Positions 24,952-47,995 of a DNA stretch of 64,000 bases are shown piece after piece. The stretch spans positions 186,001-250,000 of the forward strand of contig NZ_MVBD01000002.1 of NCBI RefSeq assembly GCF_002000055.1. The letters are read 5' to 3'. This DNA comes from Marinicella sediminis (GTDB taxonomy: Bacteria; Pseudomonadota; Gammaproteobacteria; Xanthomonadales; Marinicellaceae). Position 1 is the first letter of the stretch. Each line of letters begins with the position of its first letter. Under the pieces are notes generated by a model. That model was not told where the DNA came from. It saw nothing but the letters and a program-made list of their open reading frames with translations, and did no database searches. The position numbers and the translations under genes are program-made.

Positions 24952-25336
24952 AACCAATCAATGAGGTCCAATCAATGGGGTCAGAGACGTTGATTTTTAT
25001 ACGCTTTCTACTTCCTGTCTCCCCCTTTGTGTCTAGGACTGGCCCTCCTGCCTGTTTGTTCTTCGGTTTGTGAAGTGGCCTGAAAACCATGTTTTGTTGA
25101 TCGAATCACGAATTTCAGCCAATATAAAATCATATACTCTGACTCCATAGATTTTGACACCATTGATTTTGTACAGCATCAAAAACCCTGATTAAATCAG
25201 TTACTCTTACCCTGCTCATCCCTTTTGCTTTTCTATCACCAGGTGGATCTGTGTTTTTCAGGAAATTTTCAAAAGATATTCAGGTATAAAAACTGATGTT
25301 TACATACGATGAGTTTTTTAATTTGAGAATGTAGCC
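24952..25336. other. Intergenic region with two REP copies
   Basis: No gene is visible. A REP copy at 24970-24998 and a degenerate inverted copy at 25133-25170 flank about 130 bases. The sequence next to the first copy (TTTTTATAC, GCTTTC) matches the sequence beside the REP at 34063, so this may be the empty or decayed shell of a RAYT-type element. The promoter of the next gene must lie in 25171-25330. Confidence 0.45.
24970..24998 (+). repeat. REP-type palindrome copy
   Basis: It begins AATCAATGGGGTCAGAGACG and continues TTGATTTTT, close to the family consensus. Its downstream flank matches that of the copy at 34063. Confidence 0.75.
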
Positions 25337-29294: not shown

Positions 29295-29320
29295 AATCAA
29301 TGGGGTCAGAGCCGATGATT
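29295..29320 (+). repeat. REP-type palindrome copy
   Basis: Starts AATCAATGGGGTCAGAGCCG and ends ATGATT, touching the stop codon of the NYN-domain gene. Confidence 0.7.
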
Positions 29321-30057
29321 CACTTGGCTGAAACATACATCTGAGAATTGTTCTTACGCATTTCAATTTCGAACAAATCACAAGTCCTCACAATATCACT
29401 TAATTTTTTATAGCCATAGTTCACCGGTGAGAAAGAACTGTTGTTTGATATATATTGTCCAACTTGGCTTAAGTGAGCCCATCCATCATCTTCGACGGAC
29501 TGTTCAACCGCAGTCCTTAATAACTTGATTAGCTTATTATCTTTCCTCAATTGTGCTCTGGATTGTTTGACATTTCCGCTTTGACTGGATTCGGTTTTAT
29601 TCTCAGCTTCTGATACATCTACTTCAACTAAATTTTCAGTAAAAATAAACTGTGAACAAGCATCGACAAATGGGCTGGGTGTTTTTTTCTCACCAAAACC
29701 ATAAACCTTCATTCCATTGGCCAAAATTCTCGTTACCAGTGGCGTAAAGTCACTGTCACTGGTCATTAAGGCAAATGCATCAACTTGTTGGCTATAAAGG
29801 ATATCCATTGCATCAATAATCATCGCTGCATCGGTGGCATTTTTTCCTTTGGTATAGGCAAATTGCTGAATGGGTACAATGGCAAAAGGGTGCAATTTTT
29901 CTTCCCACCCTTTCAATTGAGGGTTTTTCCAATCACCATAAGCCTTGCGAATATTAACCACACCATATTTTGCCAACTCACTAATCACCCCATCAACTGA
30001 TTTTGAACTGACATTATCGCAGTCAATGAGCAGCGCAATTTTATTTTCTCTTGTCAT
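29320..30057 (-). CDS. NYN-domain (LabA-like) nuclease with C-terminal OST-HTH/LOTUS domain
   Basis: The 245-residue protein starts with a NYN/PIN-like domain. Acidic residues sit where the family binds Mg2+: LLIDCDN (residues 9-15), the KNATDAAMIIDAMD stretch (about 91-104) and MTSDSDFTPLV (about 117-128). The C-terminal 75 residues (LRTAVEQSVEDDGWAHLSQVG...) match an OST-HTH/LOTUS RNA-binding domain. A cytoplasmic RNA-processing or RNA-cleaving role is expected from the fold. GAGG eight bases upstream supports the start. Its neighbours are unrelated orphan genes and REP copies. Confidence 0.85.
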   Translation of the reverse strand: MTRENKIALLIDCDNVSSKSVDGVISELAKYGVVNIRKAYGDWKNPQLKGWEEKLHPFAIVPIQQFAYTKGKNATDAAMIIDAMDILYSQQVDAFALMTSDSDFTPLVTRILANGMKVYGFGEKKTPSPFVDACSQFIFTENLVEVDVSEAENKTESSQSGNVKQSRAQLRKDNKLIKLLRTAVEQSVEDDGWAHLSQVGQYISNNSSFSPVNYGYKKLSDIVRTCDLFEIEMRKNNSQMYVSAK

Positions 30058-34287: not shown

Positions 34288-34380
34288 GGCCCCATCATAT
34301 AGTCAATAAATCAATAGAAATAGCTGTCTTTTCGCATGATCGTATTAGAAGACATCAACAGACACTCGGGATCAAAGTAA

Positions 34381-34406
34381 AATCAACGACTCTGACCCCA
34401 TTGATT
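34381..34406 (-). repeat. REP copy, right border of RAYT remnant
   Basis: Minus-orientation copy (AATCAACGACTCTGACCCC then ATTGATT), the same distance upstream of the RAYT start as expected for a native RAYT unit. Confidence 0.75.
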
Positions 34407-36294: not shown

Positions 36295-36615
36295 TTATCT
36301 TTTTGGTTCAACACTGTGCGATTTCATTGCCGACCGAATTTCCATCTGCAATTGCACCATCTTATGACCAACAGTCACTTGGTGTATCGTATTCCAAAAG
36401 AATTCAAGACTATTGGCACTTTGATTGAAGTCTTCAGCATATTTCATCAAACTCTTGATTGCTTGAGAAACTTTTTTGTTGGCAATTTGATCATGGATCA
36501 GTTGGTATGACTCCTGATCAATTTCATTCAAAGAATGCAGGGATTCAAGACAGCTCAACAATCTGTTCTTTGATCGTCTGTTGAGTGTTATGAAATGAAT
36601 GAGCTCTCTGATCAA
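36295..36615 (-). CDS. Small helical protein coupled to the GIY-YIG gene
   Basis: The 106-residue protein starts with TTG overlapping the stop of the GIY-YIG gene (TTGA), a sign of translational coupling. It is predicted all-helical, basic at both ends, and has no cysteine beyond one. It could be a partner or immunity/regulatory subunit of the GIY-YIG protein. The family is not recognised. Confidence 0.55.
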   Translation of the reverse strand: MIRELIHFITLNRRSKNRLLSCLESLHSLNEIDQESYQLIHDQIANKKVSQAIKSLMKYAEDFNQSANSLEFFWNTIHQVTVGHKMVQLQMEIRSAMKSHSVEPKR

Positions 36616-37508
36616 AACAAATCATCCACCACTTTTGCCTGCATGAGTTTATTAAAACTGGTGTATCTGGGACTTTGCATAGTTCCTTGTTTGGCATTGC
36701 CATAATGAATGGGACCTACTTTGATGGCTTTGCCTTTGAAATTAAGCTTATATTTGTCGCCTTCTCCGTATGGCTCAATGGAATCCACTTCAGCATAATG
36801 GGTCACAGCTGATATAGGCGAGGTTTGATACGCGGCGATGTATTTAATCTTATCCAGCTTTCCGCCACCAATCCGAATGGCATACCAACAATCTTCCCCC
36901 AAAAACACTTCATTAAAACCATCTTCCTGAGCTGGGACCACTATGGTATTGAGTGGATCTGTGATGCCTTTGGGCTGAGCTTCGTCAAGCACAATTTTTT
37001 CAGGCTTTTCAAATACTTTTAGCTCGATTAATGGCAGGATAGATAAGATTTCCCGCAGAAATTGGTTTATATCAGCTTTCTCAAATTCGGACAAATTGGG
37101 TTCTTTCGGATTGTTACCGTTTTCCACCACCGATCTTTGGGCTTCATTGGCAATCTGCACCAATTTATATTCCAACCAGGTGATGTGTGCCCGATTCAGT
37201 TCATTGTTACTGGAAACAAACACAATGGCCCGGTCCCAAAAGTCTTTCTCAAGCACATGCTTATCAAACCGATCTTTGAAATTATCCGACTGACCAATAT
37301 AAACCTTTGGCTTATCCTCTCCTTCTTCATAACCCACCAGGATATAAACGCCGGCATTCTTAAATTCCGGACGAGAACGGTGCAGTTTCCAATCCCGGCG
37401 TGCAAACTCCACACCCACTCCAGTCCAATTCATCTTCTCGATGATTTTCAAAGAACTGGGACTGCCTGTGGGCATGAAAAGTCGGATTGTGTAGGGGTTG
37501 GTTTGCAT
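36612..37508 (-). CDS. GIY-YIG nuclease family protein
   Basis: The 298-residue protein has a GIY-YIG fold at about residues 50-140: GVYILVGYEEG (the GIY strand), KVYIGQSDNFKDRFDKH (the YIG strand with the catalytic-type Arg after it) and a later conserved Glu in TWLEYKLVQIANE. The C-terminal half is a beta-rich domain (YAEVDSIEPYGEGDKYKLNF) like those that follow GIY-YIG in DUF4357-type proteins. It lies downstream of the type I RM genes and starts a group of coupled small genes. A role as a DNA nuclease in defence is plausible but unproven. Confidence 0.82.
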   Translation of the reverse strand: MQTNPYTIRLFMPTGSPSSLKIIEKMNWTGVGVEFARRDWKLHRSRPEFKNAGVYILVGYEEGEDKPKVYIGQSDNFKDRFDKHVLEKDFWDRAIVFVSSNNELNRAHITWLEYKLVQIANEAQRSVVENGNNPKEPNLSEFEKADINQFLREILSILPLIELKVFEKPEKIVLDEAQPKGITDPLNTIVVPAQEDGFNEVFLGEDCWYAIRIGGGKLDKIKYIAAYQTSPISAVTHYAEVDSIEPYGEGDKYKLNFKGKAIKVGPIHYGNAKQGTMQSPRYTSFNKLMQAKVVDDLF

Positions 37509-37560: not shown

Positions 37561-38115
37561 TTAATCTGCTAAATCACTCGCTGGTAAAAAATATGAATGA
37601 CACTTTTTCATACCTGGTTTAACTTTAAAACTTGGGACAATATAAGTGAAAATATTCATATGATCAGCTAAATGCTGAAGCATATCTTCCATGGGGTGTT
37701 CTTTTCCTATACACAAATCCGAATAAAATTCTTTTTTTGTATCTTTGATAACTAGAATCAAAAAAACAAATCTGTATTGAAGTCTATACATATACCCTTG
37801 ACCAATGGCATCTTTCAGACCTGAATAATCCGTAAACTTCAATTCGATAGCAATTCCATTTTCATCCAGAGTCATATCTGGCCTGTGGTTCTTGCCAAAA
37901 CAATATACGCTACTTACTTTTGTTTCCTTGTTAATCTGAGACATCACTGTGCAGTTAAACCTGTTCTTTCTGGCATCTAAAACTGCAGATAATCCATTCT
38001 CAAAATCTCTTTCGTTCTTGCCAGTGGTATTAAAATTATATTCTTTGATCATTTGATCCAACGTGATAGCGTCATCCCAATACCTTCCTGCTCTTCTTGA
38101 TGCTTCAAAAGCCAT
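37561..38115 (-). CDS. PD-(D/E)XK-like protein downstream of hsdR
   Basis: The 184-residue protein contains RPDMTLDENGIAIELKFTD (about residues 78-96), whose D-x(n)-E-x-K pattern is that of the PD-(D/E)XK nuclease core, so it may cut or bind DNA. AGGAG precedes its ATG and it follows hsdR after 21 bases, so it is probably in the same transcript. It is too short to be a second hsdR. It may be a solitary restriction-like nuclease or a competence/conflict protein; I do not recognise a named family. Confidence 0.6.
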   Translation of the reverse strand: MAFEASRRAGRYWDDAITLDQMIKEYNFNTTGKNERDFENGLSAVLDARKNRFNCTVMSQINKETKVSSVYCFGKNHRPDMTLDENGIAIELKFTDYSGLKDAIGQGYMYRLQYRFVFLILVIKDTKKEFYSDLCIGKEHPMEDMLQHLADHMNIFTYIVPSFKVKPGMKKCHSYFLPASDLAD

Positions 38116-38136: not shown

Positions 38137-41100
38137 CTAACTACTCCAACTCTGACTCAATGCCTCAGCTTGCTTTAAACACAACTCGATCGCTTCCTCT
38201 GCTTTATCAGGTGGATACTTCCATTTTCTCAGCGCGCGTCTCACCAGATTTCTTAATCTGGCTCTGACACTGTCCCTTACTTGCCAGTCTACGGTTGTAC
38301 TTTTCCTTAGTTTTTTGGTGATGAAAATAGCCAGTTCTCTGAGGTTGTTATCCCCCAACTCCCTGACCGCAGACTCATTTTGTATCAGTGCCCGATAAAA
38401 TGCGATTTCATCTGAATTGAGGCCAGAGTTCTTGGCCATCTCAGCATCCTTGACCATGTCCATGGCCATTTGAATGAGTTCTTCGATCACTTGCGCTGTT
38501 TCAATGGCCCTGTTGTGATATTTTCTTAAGGTTTCCATGATGCGGTCTGAGTATTTTTTTTCTGAGACCACGTCTGACTTCATTTTGTGTTTGACTTCAT
38601 CACGCAGCAGTTTCTCTAACAGATTCACAGCCAAGTTTTTTTCTTCCATGTTGGCTACATCTTCTAAAAATTCTATCGACAACAGTCCTATATTGGGCTT
38701 ATCTAAACCGACAAGTTTAAAAATATCATCCACGCCATCTGAATAAACGGCGTTATCAATGATTTGCTTCAGGGCTGAATTTTTTTCTTCCTCAGACAAT
38801 CGTTTATCAACTGAGGTGTATTTAGTAAGTGATTTTTTAACCTCTTCAAAAAATGCGATTTCTTTGTGCAGAGTTTTGACCTCATCCATCGTGCCACACA
38901 AAGTATGGGCTGATCGGATCTTGGCCATGATGTCTAGAAAACGCTTTTTACCGTCTAATTCACCATCATTATTAACTGAAGACAAAATGTGACCCAAAAC
39001 TTTAGGCAATAACTTCAAAGCTTTGGTTTCATACTCTCTGTAATCACACCCATGCATCAAGCCATGCAACTTATCCATGTTTTCCAGCAGAATGGCATAA
39101 GCCTCGCTTGTGCTGTGGGTGGGTTTGCCTTTGCCATTTGAGTTGGTATAGGTTTTGAGGGCTTCTTTCAGTTCATTGGCGATACCAATGTAATCCACGA
39201 CCAAGCCACCTGGCTTATCTTTGAACACACGATTTACCCTAGCGATAGCCTGCATCAGATTATGTCCCCTCATGGGCTTGTCAATGTACATGGTGTGACA
39301 GTTGGGTGCATCGAAACCTGTCAACCACATATCGCGAACAATCACCAGTTGGAGCGGATCATTGACGTCCTTAAATCGCCGCTCAAACAGTTTCTTGGAT
39401 TCTTTGTTGTATATGTGCGGTTGCATTTTGGCCTTGTCAGAAGCAGAGCCTGTCATGACAATTTTGATGGCCCCTTTCATGGGATCCTCATCATGCCACT
39501 CAGGCTTAAGGGCAATGATCGCATCATAATAGTCGACACAAATTTCCCGGCTCATACAAACGATCATACCTTTACCCTGAATCGAAGCCTGACGTTGTTC
39601 AAAGTGATTGACTAAATCGTTAGCCACCTGATCAATTCTGGCCTGACTGCCAACTATTTTTTCTAAAGCAGACCAGTTGGATTTGGTTTTTTCCCTTTGT
39701 GCAATGTCTTCTTCATCCTCAATCACCTCTTCCACATCATCATTCAATGCTTCAATGTCATCCACATTGATATCGAGCTTAGCCAATCGTGACTCATAAA
39801 ATATAGGCACGGTGGATCCATCATCAACGGCATCCTGAATGTCATAAATCGACACATAATCACCAAACACCGCACGGGTGTCTTTATCTACTTGATCTAT
39901 GGGCGTGCCAGTGAAGCCGATGAATGAGGCTTGAGGTAAGGCGTCACGTAAATGTTTAGAGTAGCCATAGGTATATTGTCCCGTTTCAGGATTCAACCTG
40001 GCTTTGTCGCCGTATTGGCTACGATGGGCTTCATCACTGATCACCACAATGTTGTTTCTTTCGCTTAACACAGGATGCGATGTCTCATCCTTCAACAGTG
40101 CAAACTTTTGAATGGTGGTAAATACAATCCCACCTGCTTGCCTAGAAGACAAAATTTCTCGAAGATCATCACGATCACCTGCTTGTATCGGTGTTTGTTT
40201 GAGCGTTTCCCTCGCCATTTTAAATGTATTGAACAGTTGCCCATCCAAATCATTGCGATCGGTCACCACCACCAAAGTCGGGTTGTTCATTTCTGGTTGA
40301 GCCAGTAACTTTCCGGCATAACAAACCATTGAAATCGATTTACCTGAACCTTGGGTGTGCCACACCACACCCGCCTTTCCAGAACCAGGTACCACATCAT
40401 CACCATATGTGGCCCTTTTTTCCTGTATTTCTGTTTCCTTCTGAGCAGCGATGACCGTGGCTTTAACAGCCTCTCTGACTGCATGAAACTGATGATAGGC
40501 TGCTATTTTTTTGATGATGGTATCGCCATCGGATTCAAACAATATAAAATGCTTGATGTAATCCAGGAATAGATCCGGACGAAAAAATCCCTTAACCAAA
40601 GTTTCCAATGCGTATTTGAACAGCGGTTTGTCATCCTCATGACTGATGGTTCGCCAAGGCATAAAACGTTCTTTGTTGGCGGTCAATGAACCCACTCTGG
40701 CATTCAAACCATCGCTGATGACCAAAGCTTCATTGAATGCGAACAGATCTGACAATTCATCTTTATAGGTTTGTAATTGCTGAAAAGACTGCCAAATGTC
40801 TTCTTTCTCTCCGGTTGGGTTTTTTAACTCCAAAACCGCCAATGGCAAGCCATTAACGAACACAATCACATCAGGACGACGGTTGCCTTTTGAACCAGTG
40901 ATGGTGAATTGATTGACCACCAAAAATTGATTATTACTGACATGCTCAAAGTCAACCAGCTGAATATATTTAGTTTTGGATTTATCGTTTTGCTTGAACT
41001 CAACTTTCACCCCATGTAACAACATCTGGTGAAATGCTTTGTTGTTCTTTATCAAAATGGGAGTTTCAGCTTTGCTTAATTGGAGAACAACTTGTTCCAG

Positions 41101-41298
41101 AGTGGCTAATGGAATCTGAGGGTTTAAAGCCTGTAAGCGATCAAACAACCGATCATTCAAAATAATTTGCCGATAATCAGTCCTTTCAGTGGCTATGCCG
41201 TTTGGGGATATGTCAATGCCACTGATGTAATCATATCCAATATCTTCAAACCATGACAGACACATTTGCTCTAATTTATCTTCATTGATTAAACTCAT
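38137..41298 (-). CDS. hsdR: Type I restriction enzyme R subunit
   Basis: The 1053-residue motor-nuclease subunit cuts DNA after ATP-driven translocation within the HsdR2M2S complex. The nuclease core is at residues 141-160 (RPDVIVF...AVLELKN; Asp, Glu, Lys in place). The SF2 motor includes Walker A HTQGSGKS (about 313-320), DEAH (ISDEAHRSQYG, about 420) and GFTGTPI, with motif VI QAIARVNR further on. All domains are intact and the length is normal. Its ATG shares one base with the stop of the SIR2 gene (TAATG). Confidence 0.96.
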   Translation of the reverse strand: MSLINEDKLEQMCLSWFEDIGYDYISGIDISPNGIATERTDYRQIILNDRLFDRLQALNPQIPLATLEQVVLQLSKAETPILIKNNKAFHQMLLHGVKVEFKQNDKSKTKYIQLVDFEHVSNNQFLVVNQFTITGSKGNRRPDVIVFVNGLPLAVLELKNPTGEKEDIWQSFQQLQTYKDELSDLFAFNEALVISDGLNARVGSLTANKERFMPWRTISHEDDKPLFKYALETLVKGFFRPDLFLDYIKHFILFESDGDTIIKKIAAYHQFHAVREAVKATVIAAQKETEIQEKRATYGDDVVPGSGKAGVVWHTQGSGKSISMVCYAGKLLAQPEMNNPTLVVVTDRNDLDGQLFNTFKMARETLKQTPIQAGDRDDLREILSSRQAGGIVFTTIQKFALLKDETSHPVLSERNNIVVISDEAHRSQYGDKARLNPETGQYTYGYSKHLRDALPQASFIGFTGTPIDQVDKDTRAVFGDYVSIYDIQDAVDDGSTVPIFYESRLAKLDINVDDIEALNDDVEEVIEDEEDIAQREKTKSNWSALEKIVGSQARIDQVANDLVNHFEQRQASIQGKGMIVCMSREICVDYYDAIIALKPEWHDEDPMKGAIKIVMTGSASDKAKMQPHIYNKESKKLFERRFKDVNDPLQLVIVRDMWLTGFDAPNCHTMYIDKPMRGHNLMQAIARVNRVFKDKPGGLVVDYIGIANELKEALKTYTNSNGKGKPTHSTSEAYAILLENMDKLHGLMHGCDYREYETKALKLLPKVLGHILSSVNNDGELDGKKRFLDIMAKIRSAHTLCGTMDEVKTLHKEIAFFEEVKKSLTKYTSVDKRLSEEEKNSALKQIIDNAVYSDGVDDIFKLVGLDKPNIGLLSIEFLEDVANMEEKNLAVNLLEKLLRDEVKHKMKSDVVSEKKYSDRIMETLRKYHNRAIETAQVIEELIQMAMDMVKDAEMAKNSGLNSDEIAFYRALIQNESAVRELGDNNLRELAIFITKKLRKSTTVDWQVRDSVRARLRNLVRRALRKWKYPPDKAEEAIELCLKQAEALSQSWSS

Positions 41299-42428
41299 TA
41301 AAAGTCTCTCAATCTTTCTGAAGCCATATCTAGAGCCAATGCTAAATATTTTTCTACATAACTGTGATCATCATCTGGATACCACAGTGTTCTGATTTTC
41401 AATTCATTCAGCCTTGCTTCTTTTTGATTTTTGGTTTCTCCATCATTAGGCTGAGGAAGTAAACTAAAATGGTCAGGAACATCAAAGTCAGAATCTAAAA
41501 TCACCTCAGAAAACAGCTCTAATGTCTTATCATGACTCATGCTACAACCCAAAAATAGCAATGAGCTTGTCACATAGATTTGCCTCAAAGCTTTAGATAA
41601 AGGCTTTGTAAAGTCCAATGGGTTCCCATATGCTTTATCATATTGTTCAGCAGTAAAAACATATGTCTCGTGATCTTCTGCATCACCATGAAGTTTAAGC
41701 AAGCATCTTTCACCTTGAACTAGCTTAGTAGAAAATTTATTCCCTTCTTGAAGACCATGCATATATCCAGTAATGTGACCTTTTCCAATTACTTTCTCTA
41801 TCATTCCATCGAAATTAGTAGTGACTATGCACCCATCACACAATTCAGGCAGAAAATTTACTGCACCTACTGGACCTTCCATTGGCATTTGGCCATCAGA
41901 AAACTTGTTTCTTATATAACTCTTAACTTGGGCATTTTCAGCGTTCCATAGTATTTGCGCCACTTCAAAGTACTCGCATGCTAATAATTGTTCTTCAATT
42001 TTAAGCACATCTAATCCATCTATTCTTTCTGATATTTCATGTAAAGCCTTACCCCATAAAGGATAATTTGACGAACATGAAATTCCTGCACCTATGAAAG
42101 GAACAATCCTCTTTCTCTTAATGGATGCTACAAGATCTAGAAAAACTGGCTTAAGGTCATTTTGTTTGATAAATTCAATTGCAGACTCGTGGTGCTTTAA
42201 CAAACAAAACTCCATTTCTTCGTAATAGGTATCCCTATCTATCCAAAATAAGGCCTCACTTCGTTCATAGGAATATGGAGCTCTTTCTGGAATCAGACTT
42301 GGTATTTTTATTGGTTCTTCGCCATTTAAATTGTTATGAATATCATTATTTTCTAAGTAGGCACTTTGTAAAGTCTCCTCAACACTTCTGATAACTTTTT
42401 CACTAATTAGAATCCACTCTTTACTCAT
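41298..42428 (-). CDS. SIR2-domain protein embedded in the type I RM operon
   Basis: The 376-residue protein has a unique N-terminal region of about 105 residues, then a SIR2-like domain with the NAD+-binding landmarks PFIGAGIS (110-117), VTTNFDG (202-208), LKLHGD (244-249) and LFLGCSMSHD (291-300). In other defence systems (ThsA, DSR, SIR2-associated argonautes) such domains deplete NAD+ to stop phage growth. Its ATG overlaps the hsdS stop by four bases (ATGA) and its stop overlaps the hsdR start (TAATG), so it is built into the operon. Deacylase activity is less likely, as no zinc-ribbon cysteines are seen. Confidence 0.85.
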   Translation of the reverse strand: MSKEWILISEKVIRSVEETLQSAYLENNDIHNNLNGEEPIKIPSLIPERAPYSYERSEALFWIDRDTYYEEMEFCLLKHHESAIEFIKQNDLKPVFLDLVASIKRKRIVPFIGAGISCSSNYPLWGKALHEISERIDGLDVLKIEEQLLACEYFEVAQILWNAENAQVKSYIRNKFSDGQMPMEGPVGAVNFLPELCDGCIVTTNFDGMIEKVIGKGHITGYMHGLQEGNKFSTKLVQGERCLLKLHGDAEDHETYVFTAEQYDKAYGNPLDFTKPLSKALRQIYVTSSLLFLGCSMSHDKTLELFSEVILDSDFDVPDHFSLLPQPNDGETKNQKEARLNELKIRTLWYPDDDHSYVEKYLALALDMASERLRDF

Positions 42429-43801
42429 AAGGCTTTTCCAATTTTTATTTCCCCATTTAGAAGATTTGGCAATAAGGCATCACGTAACTCAGCCAGAACT
42501 CTAGTTTCTATATCCAATGAAGAGCATTTTTCATACATCGGCCCCACTGTATATCTAAATTCTGCGAGTACATTTTCATCTGGGTAGGTCACTAATAATC
42601 TTTTCAAGTCTGCGACTGTAATGTGACCTAAACCTGTTGTTTGTTTATTCTCTGCTGTGGCAATTAGTGTAGGTTTCATATGCCTTAAAAGATAGTAGGT
42701 GAAGTATTTCTGATATTCAGATTCAAAGTTCAATTTGAAAATGTGTTGGTTCAACCACGCATCCCCTCCAAACCATTTAAAAACCTCTAAAGAAGTTTTA
42801 GGGCTGCCTGACCATGAATACAATACATCATCATTTTTAATTGAATACTTTTCTCGAAATTCTCCAATTGTAAATTTTGTTCCTTCACTCAAACCATTCT
42901 TCAGCTCTACAATTTTAACGATAGGTAAACCACTTCTATCACTTGAGAAGTCTTTTGCCTTGAAGGCATATCCATTCACAAATTCAGCTGTTTCGTACAA
43001 AGCTTTCTCAGACCAACCCTCAGGCACCTCTCCCAACTCTGAATCAACCAACGCATCAGGAAATAAAGCAGCGGTGGTTTTGAGTTGTACTTGTTGCTCT
43101 TGGCTGAGTTGGTCGAGTTCGTCTAAAGACTTACCACTGATGGCAGCCATGGCTGCACGTTCAGGGTCTTGGCCTTCTTTTTGGGCAGCTATTTTGGCCA
43201 TGGTGGGTTCGAAATCGACAAACCAGCTTTTAAAGATGGCTTGGGCGATGTGTTCGAGGGTTTGGTTGGCTTGGCGGTTGATTTCGATTTTGTTATCAAA
43301 TTGGTCTAACACATTTGCAATTTCATTCTGAATTTCGATATCAATATCAGGCACTAATACTTTTGCTAAATCTGAGCCACGAACTCCTGCTGCTCCCGCC
43401 CCCTGCTCTACAATTGCAGATATAGCCTGCTTACCGTGTCGACTAGAGAAGTAATAATAAAAGAAAAGAGGATTAGCTATTTTTTTATTTAATCGACATC
43501 TAATCAGATGAGATTCAAAACATACTTTTTCTTTATCTTCGATAAAAATTGAACATTGACCAGCACCTTCAACAACAAGTGACTGTCTAGCAAATAATAA
43601 ATCACCTGGTTCGACCAATGAGTTCGCATATTCTTTTGCATTCAGAGGTACACGGTCCATTGGGATATTTTTAATTCGAGGGAATTTAAACAGTTCCCCC
43701 ATGTTTATCATCTTGTACCCTTCACCACGAATTCTCTTGGGCTTGGTTAAGCCATTACGCAGAGGAATCTCAAACAACTCCTCAAAAAATTTAAACGTCA
43801 T
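42425..43801 (-). CDS. hsdS: Type I restriction enzyme specificity subunit
   Basis: The 458-residue protein has two target-recognition domains (about residues 1-150 and 250-420), each followed by conserved helices: IANVLDQFDNKIEINRQANQTLEHIAQAIFKSWFVDFEP after the first (given here in outline) and the LAELRDALLPNLLNGEI end after the second. It determines the bipartite DNA site of the HsdM/HsdR complex. It overlaps hsdM by 11 bases and the SIR2 gene by four. The second half is intact, so the gene should be functional; its target site cannot be predicted. Confidence 0.92.
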   Translation of the reverse strand: MTFKFFEELFEIPLRNGLTKPKRIRGEGYKMINMGELFKFPRIKNIPMDRVPLNAKEYANSLVEPGDLLFARQSLVVEGAGQCSIFIEDKEKVCFESHLIRCRLNKKIANPLFFYYYFSSRHGKQAISAIVEQGAGAAGVRGSDLAKVLVPDIDIEIQNEIANVLDQFDNKIEINRQANQTLEHIAQAIFKSWFVDFEPTMAKIAAQKEGQDPERAAMAAISGKSLDELDQLSQEQQVQLKTTAALFPDALVDSELGEVPEGWSEKALYETAEFVNGYAFKAKDFSSDRSGLPIVKIVELKNGLSEGTKFTIGEFREKYSIKNDDVLYSWSGSPKTSLEVFKWFGGDAWLNQHIFKLNFESEYQKYFTYYLLRHMKPTLIATAENKQTTGLGHITVADLKRLLVTYPDENVLAEFRYTVGPMYEKCSSLDIETRVLAELRDALLPNLLNGEIKIGKAL

Positions 43802-45515
43802 AACCTAACCCCAACAAGTTCTTTTTAATCTCGGCTTCTAATCGGTCAGATTCTTTAAACTGTGTTTTTAGTTGTGTGGTTAGGTTCGCCATTTTTTCAG
43901 CAAATGGTTCGCCGTCCTCTTCTTCGGCAGCTGCACCGACATAACGGCCTGGGGTGAGTACGTGGTCGTGTTTTTGGATTTCAGGGAGTTTGACGGATTT
44001 ACAGAAGCCAGGGATGTCTTGGTATCTGTTTTCGTCAGGAGATCCCTCGGCTTCGCTCGGGATGACAGGTTCTTTAGTTTGCCAGTTGTGGTAGGTATCA
44101 GTGACTTGGTTGAGGTCTTCATCAGTGAAGTCGCGCAAGACACGGTCTTTCATGTAGCCGAGGTTACGGGCATCAATAAATAACACTTCACCTTTGCGAT
44201 CGCGGAATTTTCTTCCTGCGGCGTTGGTGCGTTCACCCTTGTTTTTGGTCAAAAACCAGATACAGGCTGGGATTTGGGTGTTGGTGAACAGTTGTCCTGG
44301 TAAGGCGACCATACATTCGACCAAGTCGTTTTCAATGAGGGCTTTTCTGATGTCTCCCTCACCTTTGGTGTTGGAGCTCATCGAACCGTTGGCTAGCAAT
44401 AAACCCATGCTGCCATTGGGTGCCAGGTGGTAAAGCATGTGTTGCAACCAAGCGAAGTTGGCATTTCCCGAAGGAGGTCTTCCATATACCCAGCGCGGAT
44501 CATCATCTTTGACACCTGCATCCCACTCTTTCATGTTGAAAGGAGGGTTGGCCATGACAAAATCTGCACGCAAATCCGGATGTTGGTCATTGGTGTAAGT
44601 ACTGGCAGGCTCTTTCCCAAAATTAAAGTCAATACCCCGAATCACCATGTTCATGGCGGCCAACTGCCAGGTGGTGTGGTTGTATTCCTGGCCATAAATG
44701 GAGACTTCACCAATGCGTCCTTTGTGCGCTTCGATGAAACTGTCAGTTTGCACAAAAAAACCACCCGAACCCATGGCTGGGTCATAGACACGGCCTTTGA
44801 AAGGCTCCAGCATTTGGACGATTAAACTAACTATTGATTTAGGCGTGTAGTACTGTCCGCCTTTTTTACCTTCTGCCAGAGCAAACTGGCCCAAAAAGTA
44901 TTCATACACATGACCGAGAATGTCTTTGGAATCCAAAGACTTATGTTCAAAAGGAATGGTCGCGATCAAGTCGATCAATTCACCCAGCTTGGTTTGATCG
45001 ATTTGTAAGCGTGTATAAAGTTTGTTGAGAACCCCTTTCAGTTTTGGGTTGACCACTTCGATGGCATCCAAGGCATTGTCGATTAAATGACCGATTGAAC
45101 TGAATTTCTTCTTTGTACCATCTTCTAGGGTTAATTCAGCACCGCCAATAACCGTTTTGTTGTTATCTTGAAGAAACTTCCAACGGGCTTGTTGTGGGAC
45201 CCAGAAGACATTGGCTTCGGTGTAGTAATCGCGTTCTTCCAGCTCTGCATTGAGCTCTTCTTCGTACTCATCAGAACCAGCCCCACCGTAATCATCAGGA
45301 TCAAGGTAATAATCATGATCAGGATCCTGAAATTGTTTTTTTAATTCTTCATGCCTAATATTGAATGAATCAGACACATATTTCAAAAACACCAGGCCCA
45401 ACACAGTGTGTTTGTATTGCGCCGCATCGAGTGTGGATCGTAATTTATCAGCTGCATTCCACAGCTTTTTTTCTAAGTCAGTTAAGAATTGTTGGTCTTC
45501 CAATGTTTCAGTCAC
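43791..45515 (-). CDS. hsdM: Type I restriction enzyme M subunit (N6-adenine methylase)
   Basis: The 574-residue protein has an HsdM N-terminal helical domain, the SAM motif DPAMGSGGFF (245-254) and catalytic NPPF (323-326). It methylates adenine in the HsdS target. The GTG start at 45515 has GGGAG just upstream. Near the C-terminus (about residues 480-496) a stretch PVIPSEAEGSPDEN interrupts the conserved NWQ...RYQDIPGFC region; its DNA (about 44032-44071) looks like a dispersed GTCATCCCGAGCGAAG-type repeat inserted in frame. Otherwise the gene is complete. Confidence 0.95.
   Translation of the reverse strand: MTETLEDQQFLTDLEKKLWNAADKLRSTLDAAQYKHTVLGLVFLKYVSDSFNIRHEELKKQFQDPDHDYYLDPDDYGGAGSDEYEEELNAELEERDYYTEANVFWVPQQARWKFLQDNNKTVIGGAELTLEDGTKKKFSSIGHLIDNALDAIEVVNPKLKGVLNKLYTRLQIDQTKLGELIDLIATIPFEHKSLDSKDILGHVYEYFLGQFALAEGKKGGQYYTPKSIVSLIVQMLEPFKGRVYDPAMGSGGFFVQTDSFIEAHKGRIGEVSIYGQEYNHTTWQLAAMNMVIRGIDFNFGKEPASTYTNDQHPDLRADFVMANPPFNMKEWDAGVKDDDPRWVYGRPPSGNANFAWLQHMLYHLAPNGSMGLLLANGSMSSNTKGEGDIRKALIENDLVECMVALPGQLFTNTQIPACIWFLTKNKGERTNAAGRKFRDRKGEVLFIDARNLGYMKDRVLRDFTDEDLNQVTDTYHNWQTKEPVIPSEAEGSPDENRYQDIPGFCKSVKLPEIQKHDHVLTPGRYVGAAAEEEDGEPFAEKMANLTTQLKTQFKESDRLEAEIKKNLLGLGYDV
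44032..44071 (-). repeat. Dispersed repeat inserted in frame inside hsdM
   Basis: On the minus strand the sequence starts CCTGTCATCCCGAGCGAAG and ends GAGGGATCTCCTGACG, a form widely scattered in bacterial genomes. It adds about 13-16 codons to hsdM without breaking the frame. Confidence 0.6.
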
Positions 45516-47896: not shown

Positions 47897-47995
47897 AATC
47901 AATGGGGTCAGAGTCGTTGATTTTCTGGCCTTTTGACTACTGTCATTTGTTTTTTGACTTTGCAGGTATACATCGACTGAAGTCGCCGCCCCGGG
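47897..47995 (+). repeat. REP copy with ~75-base extension (left direct repeat)
   Basis: Starts AATCAATGGGGTCAGAG, continues TTGATTTTCTGGCC and GGTATACATCGACTGAAG, and ends CGCCCCGGG. It is about 75-80 percent like 49645-49742 by eye, over the full length and in the same orientation. Confidence 0.65.

Follow-up and report, generated by a model that had tools for sequence, protein, structure and literature searches.

A family of SIR2-domain proteins in type I restriction-modification operons, with an N-terminal module shared by HEPN-type cargo

A 64,000-nucleotide stretch of the Marinicella sediminis genome (contig NZ_MVBD01000002.1, positions 186,001 to 250,000; hereafter the window) encodes a SIR2-domain protein within a type I restriction-modification (RM) operon. 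The protein belongs to a family of 16 members, and in all 15 with readable genomic context, the window included, the gene lies in a type I RM operon. Its N-terminal module of ~55 residues recurs in unrelated HEPN-type proteins encoded in such operons, where effector genes of many kinds occupy the place behind hsdS. Based on this pattern we propose, with about even confidence, that the SIR2 protein is a latent effector degrading nicotinamide adenine dinucleotide (NAD+), coupled to the type I RM enzyme by its N-terminal module in the manner of the guardian PrrC.

The RM-linked SIR2 gene and its family

In the open reading frame (ORF) list the genes run in the order hsdM-hsdS-SIR2-hsdR, all on the minus strand. 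HsdM, the DNA methyltransferase subunit (43791..45515; 574 residues from a GTG start), matches Pfam N6_Mtase (E = 1.7e-109) and HsdM_N and carries an NPPF motif, the specificity subunit HsdS (42425..43801; 458 residues) matches Methylase_S (3e-23) in two stretches, and the restriction/translocase subunit HsdR (38137..41298; 1053 residues) matches HSDR_N (9.1e-51), SWI2_SNF2 and T1RH-like_C as well as NCBIfam TIGR00348. The Pfam scores are strong for all three proteins and the NCBIfam match exceeds its cut-off for HsdR alone. With the three subunits encoded together and with frames and motifs intact, a type I RM system is predicted. The SIR2-domain gene (41298..42428; 376 residues; Pfam SIR2_2 at 3.2e-25) overlaps hsdS by 4 bases (ATGA) and hsdR by 1 base (TAATG), while hsdM and hsdS overlap by 11 bases, an arrangement that had been described in a sequence-only reading of this DNA and that the coordinates confirm.

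The NAD+-site landmarks that the sequence-only reading had noted as present are all found in the SIR2 translation (GAGIS at residues 113-117, TTNFD with N205, KLHGD with H247 and FLGCS at 292-296). The predicted catalytic Asn (N205, codon 41814..41816, minus strand) and His (H247, codon 41688..41690, minus strand) are invariant in 11 of 11 aligned members, and a loss of NAD+-site residues in relatives, which had been named as an outcome that would count against the idea, is not seen. By positions counted along the alignment, N205 and H247 correspond to DSR2 residues N133 and H171, the second of which PDB entries name as H171A. The best PADLOC matches are ThsA (4.6e-22) and LmuA (6.9e-19), both confined to the SIR2 core, and the families nearest to the core by sequence and by fold are ThsA, DSR2 and KomC (the structure searches, in a second look, spanned residues 73-376 for the SIR2 model and 10-171 for the HEPN model). 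The protein thus has the SIR2 fold with the catalytic Asn and His of SIR2-domain NAD+-degrading enzymes (NADases), and because its nearest families are the NADases ThsA, DSR2 and KomC, NADase chemistry and an effector role are predicted for it. SIR2 folds also include protein deacylases, and the tight overlaps on both sides of the gene would suit a protein that is not an effector but uses NAD+ to modify and so tune the RM enzyme, for example via HsdM or HsdR. We consider such a modifier very improbable, since sequence and fold group the protein with defence NADases and the same position elsewhere holds toxin-like effectors. A second, distant SIR2-domain gene on the same contig of this genome (L057:8693-9646) has no hsd match in the 18 kb covered.

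Across the 15 readable loci hsdS lies directly upstream of the SIR2 gene in 14. The order hsdS-SIR2-hsdR is found in the window and in 8 further loci, with hsdM labelled in 7 of the 8: Epibacterium ulvae, whose SIR2 protein is 78% identical to that of the window; plasmids of Photobacterium damselae, Vibrio maritimus and Ketogulonicigenium vulgare (39%, 38% and 28% SIR2 identity); one more genome (L038); and two IMG/VR contigs (L035 and L036). The eighth locus, on a third IMG/VR contig (L080), has no hsdM label in the upstream 6 kb. A single extra ORF separates hsdS from SIR2 in Photobacterium, hsdM from hsdS in L038, and SIR2 from hsdR in L035, the last resembling, by eye, the Abi_2 protein of L138. 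Six relatives belong to a divergent type I system with the order R-M-S-SIR2 (L037, L039, L040, L063, L081 and L082; hsdR of L063, just beyond the stretch first taken, was located by a separate look). Because of these six the constant neighbour is hsdS, not the hsdS-hsdR pair, which corrects the sequence-only reading on this point, and parking beside hsdR is ruled out as a defining trait. A one-off insertion, the other outcome that reading had named as damaging, is ruled out by the recurrence of the family, which also speaks against a chance arrangement. In one of the six (L040, genome G035) the entire R-M-S-SIR2 operon has an hsdM fragment on one side and an hsdR fragment on the other, both from the other type I family, as would result from the insertion of one RM system into another.

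The family is rare. A SIR2 match of any kind (E <= 0.001) occurs in 8 of 151 genomes, the window's own included, and the true members among these eight are those of the window's genome and G035 together with a fragment in G069 (L041), which sits at a contig end with no hsd gene within 8 kb and is not counted as support. One of 17 same-genus genomes has a SIR2 match, of the generic type (G002). The phage records searched with the SIR2 protein gave zero matches.

Generic SIR2 genes have a different setting. Loci with weaker SIR2 matches were opened in 45 cases (21 genome loci, L042-L062, and 24 IMG/VR loci, L083-L106, with DNA short on one side in some), and none showed an HsdM, HsdS or HsdR match, in a sample that leaves out six weaker genome matches and most plasmid SIR2 matches and in which the script left the SIR2 ORF unlabelled in 4 of the 24 IMG/VR loci. 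When 14 RM-linked SIR2 cores were placed in a tree with 28 others, all the RM-linked proteins fell on one side of a branch (support 100/99). The check proposed in the sequence-only reading, that SIR2 genes between hsdS and hsdR form one clade, therefore succeeds for the RM-linked SIR2s as a whole and not for the nine members in that exact slot, which are not one clade inside the family (2 changes), although a single clade for them is not firmly excluded (approximately unbiased test, p 0.057). The family-profile match starts at residue 1-22 in 27 of the 28 generic SIR2s (the exception is L044), which makes the ~95-residue N-terminal region specific to the RM-linked family. The two groups were first split by match strength, so the tree and the N-terminal comparison are descriptive and not an independent test.

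An N-terminal module shared with HEPN-type cargo

Some 95-100 residues precede the SIR2 core, close to the ~105 estimated in the sequence-only reading, which had singled out this region; the generic SIR2s examined lack it, and some unrelated type I RM cargo shares it. The shared part is a module of ~55 residues with the pattern ..FNE.L...PS..LF..DREAY..., covered in the window protein by residues 20-83 (42180..42371, minus strand; module profile E = 1.2e-17, but this protein is a seed of the profile). A Pfam scan of four module segments left three without a match and gave one FAS_N match at E = 0.14.

A profile built from SIR2 N-termini only and run against 7,022 ORFs of 111 fresh loci retrieved 15 proteins, all type I operon cargo, and 10 of the 10 scanned were Abi_C (HEPN-type) proteins with the module at the C-terminus. 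When SIR2 and cargo segments were combined in one profile, the matches among 15,582 ORFs down to E = 0.0018, which include its own seeds, were all RM-linked SIR2 proteins or RM cargo, with the next at 0.56; the best match among reversed proteins was 4.1. Compared profile to profile, 14 SIR2 N-termini and 18 HEPN C-termini gave a probability of 96.3 (E = 1.5e-9), compared with 0.1 for SIR2 N-terminus and HEPN body, 0.3 for SIR2 core and HEPN C-terminus, 0.1 for core and body, and a maximum of 0.2 over 40 column shuffles. The HEPN rows were picked for matching, so this E-value is flattering and the fresh-loci profile is the fairer test.

Altogether 37 non-identical proteins with the module were found (15 SIR2, 22 HEPN-like), every one of them in a type I RM operon, with the module N-terminal in the SIR2 proteins and mostly C-terminal in the HEPN-type proteins. 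Two IMG/VR scans started from HEPN proteins instead of RM genes and yielded 11 and 10 loci, of which just two were on contigs that the RM searches had not already supplied; every module-bearing locus (10 and 10) lies in an hsd operon, and the only locus outside one, L337, is module-free. A Paraburkholderia FT54 plasmid has the order hsdM-hsdS-Abi(module)-hsdR. The two opened of three distant plasmid Abi_C matches (Streptomyces and Sphingobium) have neither the module nor annotated hsd genes, and the L231, L156 and L189 proteins had no match in plasmid searches. The module-sharing HEPN cargo also matches PADLOC AbiJ, weakly, in 2 of 3 cases, and with its C-terminal module and place in an RM slot it is unlike its Abi_C-type relatives, since the three opened homologues without the module all lie outside RM loci. 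Presence of the module in all cargo kinds is ruled out; it is confined to SIR2 and HEPN-type proteins.

Instead of a dock, the module might be a phage sensor, an oligomerisation element or a self-inhibitory lid, and RM linkage would then arise because modified and unmodified phages are targeted in complementary fashion. Effectors of the SIR2 and HEPN types often require oligomers or built-in sensors, the PDB titles of ThsA, KomC and Avs5 refer to helical assemblies, and a separable regulatory part might appear, as the module does, at opposite ends of the two protein types. We nevertheless judge this quite unlikely, as it leaves unexplained both the confinement of the module to hsd operons in this sample and the three module-free homologues elsewhere.

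The cargo slot behind hsdS and the surroundings of the operon

HsdR matches occur in 53 of 398 genomes of the phylum, and 39 regions from 38 of these genomes were taken (omitting the window's own, G594, G658 (contig edge) and weaker or partial places). In 33 of the 39, hsdS lies within 8 kb upstream of hsdR, and a cargo ORF of at least 130 residues was found in 32 of these 33 loci (31 by script and L141 by hand; L147 has none). Among 76 further loci from IMG/VR, hsdS is upstream in 55 and cargo of at least 130 residues is present in 37 of the 55. The cargo matches Pfam Abi_2, Abi_C, TIR, ThsB-type TIR, AAA_13 (in L148), Fic, FRG, DUF4268, PIN and DUF3800, and also includes a reverse transcriptase, YobI and KAP NTPases, and further families. 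For the genome sample, Pfam scans covered 40 of the 57 cargo ORFs with 150 or more residues, and the remainder were judged by eye. The RM systems of Vibrio maritimus (L005, SIR2) and L139 (DUF4268) are 87% identical in hsdM and 89% in hsdR at the DNA level, and after the differing cargo identity restarts exactly at the hsdR start codon. By these sequence comparisons the place behind hsdS is a cargo slot with swapped effectors.

This exchange is also the basis of the main rival to coupling, in which the SIR2 protein is independent abortive-infection cargo that senses phage alone, the operon offering shared expression and joint mobility and the slot a general landing site. The diversity of slot families (TIR, Fic, AAA_13, reverse transcriptase, PIN, FRG and DUF4268 among the cargo-bearing genome loci) and the swap between the near-identical L005 and L139 systems favour it. 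So does the HsdR tree, on which the SIR2 label requires 7 changes, close to the 8.4 averaged over shuffles (49 of 500 shuffles needed as few), so that strict co-inheritance of SIR2 with the RM genes is unsupported; SIR2 and HsdR identities correlate with a Spearman coefficient of 0.79 over 36 non-independent pairs. A precedent is TgvAB of Vibrio cholerae VPI-2, a pair of phage-defence genes that sits inside a type I RM operon and, according to the available passages, functions without Hsd (PMC11411939). Independence leaves aside, however, that the SIR2 family and the module were never met without RM genes where context is readable, unlike generic SIR2s, and that one module is common to two unrelated effector folds in the RM setting, and we consider it somewhat unlikely.

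Several occupants of the slot bear on its range. TIR-domain proteins (L140:7384-8490 and L158:7718-8359) indicate that a second fold with NAD+-using members has entered it, and a Drt4-type reverse transcriptase (PADLOC 7e-201) lies between hsdS and hsdR in L163 (6856-8484). The FRG-domain cargo L141:6993-8300 ends in a copy of the HsdR C-terminal tail (35% identity to its own HsdR across 74 residues), which could offer cargo a second route into the RM complex. A 57% identical relative of the DUF4268-type cargo of L142 sits behind hsdR in L003. In the window a GIY-YIG-like gene, the PADLOC candidate PDC-S14 (36612..37508, minus strand), lies just downstream of the operon, and a 29% identical relative (194 residues) is slot cargo in L173. 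The DUF4268-type relative and the PDC-S14 gene suggest that cargo positions include the place behind hsdR. Closer to hsdR, 21 bases past its end, is a gene for 184 residues (37561..38115, minus strand) with no family in the scans, possibly linked to the operon.

The operon lies inside a low-GC stretch (38.6-44.0% across 24-48 kb, 44.3-54.5% in the remaining window), which also encodes a protein with NYN and OST-HTH/LOTUS domains (29320-30057). Perfect inverted copies of a 28-base repeat (AATCAATGGGGTCAGAG...) flank the operon at 34379-34406 and 47897-47924, with further copies about positions 24969, 28007, 29294, 34066 and 49644; its 17-base core has 18 matches in the genome with at most one mismatch, 10 of them in the window, and a control pattern has 0. 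The repeats may be remnants of a mobile element by which the island was assembled. Among 17 genomes searched for an empty site, the left flank protein was matched in the window's own alone, so the island borders are not fixed.

Coupling to the restriction enzyme and known systems

From this pattern we infer docking, a partner subunit and a trigger. The module would tie the SIR2 effector physically to the Hsd complex, most likely to its HsdM/HsdS part; docking is suggested because the module is confined to RM operons in two unrelated folds, and the HsdR-tail copy on the FRG cargo lends some aid. The effector would stay quiet while the complex is intact and unchallenged, and our guess is that its activation follows inhibition or saturation of the complex by a phage, or engagement of unmodified DNA that is not then cleared. 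NAD+ loss would then stop the infected cell. At the opposite protein end the same module would link effectors of HEPN type with related RM enzymes, and the place behind hsdS is where effectors are swapped. More broadly, and at just under even confidence, type I methyltransferases may be a common docking platform into which a portable module plugs SIR2 NADase or HEPN RNase suicide effectors, one sensor of restriction failure with exchangeable killers, PrrC being one instance of a widespread guardian class.

A number of observations weigh against coupling through the module. Among loci with hsdS upstream it is present in 4 of the 33 from genomes and 13 of the 55 from IMG/VR, so that most slot cargo is module-free; by profile scan Fic, DUF4268, TIR, reverse transcriptase, Abi_2 and AAA cargo lack it, as does the L151 cargo, which by eye is HEPN-like. 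The module region is of low confidence in the SIR2 model (block means of the predicted local distance difference test 44-75 over residues 21-60) and could be self-inhibitory or oligomerising rather than a dock. Nearly all DNA was collected around RM or SIR2 genes, which makes its restriction to RM loci sample-bound. In the available account TgvAB protects E. coli without Hsd genes, though for several phages 10-100-fold less than in their presence, for which its authors suggest stoichiometry (PMC11411939); slot residence thus need not mean dependence.

prrC is located between hsdS and hsdR. Like PrrC, the window effector shares its operon with hsdMSR, a likeness of position, and would follow a guardian logic. 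The EcoprrI-PrrC anticodon nuclease resides in a type IC RM operon, an association conserved across diverse bacteria, and in the passages concerned only PrrC is described as latent within the Hsd complex and as activated by an antirestriction peptide (PMC3506569, PMC3874165, PMC12707154). PrrC is an ABC-ATPase/HEPN tRNase, whereas the window protein is a SIR2 protein with a separate N-terminal module and no NTPase match, including none to the AAA_13 family expected of PrrC/RloC. ThsA, DSR2 and KomC have C-terminal sensor domains or partners; the window protein has none after its core and has hsd neighbours instead. In particular, its 376 residues match SIR2_2 only, to residue 347, without the C-terminal sensor of Thoeris, and no TIR (ThsB) match was found at E <= 0.01 among nine other scanned window proteins. 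It is far shorter than DSR1/DSR2 (~1000 residues with a long C-terminal sensor), its PADLOC Dsr1 match covering profile positions 122-273 of 1227 only. Its neighbours are hsdS and hsdR and not the HerA/DUF87 ATPase of SIR2-HerA (Nezha), HerA having no match at E <= 0.01 among the same nine proteins, and they are Hsd proteins where Kongming has KomA and KomB (no KomA or KomB model was searched by name). TgvAB is of GmrSD type and targets phages with modified DNA, with no SIR2 in the available text (PMC11411939).

The two-tier interpretation offered in the sequence-only reading is partly supported overall, and neither it nor the gene's location is new: Makarova 2012 linked Sir2 enzymes to type I RM and, arguing from PrrC-PrrI, proposed coupling of immunity and suicide (PMC3506569). 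Its relevant passages propose nuclease or ADP-ribosylating activity for Sir2, where we predict a NADase, and do not define a family, describe an N-terminal module, test for a clade or count slots (PMC3506569). Type I RM loci hosting a second defence gene are likewise on record in the portions available (PMC3506569, PMC12629846, PMC11411939). Type I RM itself, SIR2 NADases, Sir2 near type I RM and hsd-operon cargo are thus already known. Among the entries opened in a literature search, with bioRxiv and most subscription titles outside its reach, none reports an experiment on SIR2 or HEPN genes in hsd operons. A 2024 preprint by Payne et al. reportedly treats embedded defences and may cover part of the present findings. 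Within the reach of the searches, the new findings are the definition of an RM-bound SIR2 family that has an N-terminus of its own, the constancy of its position behind hsdS in type I operons of two kinds, and a module common to this family and HEPN effectors.

If the proposed coupling is true, restriction enzymes would be sensors with exchangeable suicide outputs besides being cutters, and the module would provide a sequence handle for finding guardians and a direct binding test. The immunity-suicide hypothesis of 2012, so far borne mainly by PrrC, would become a testable general mechanism, and a possible cost of phage antirestriction proteins would be explained. Annotation would also gain, with SIR2 and Abi_C genes of this kind read as parts of RM systems and not as lone genes.

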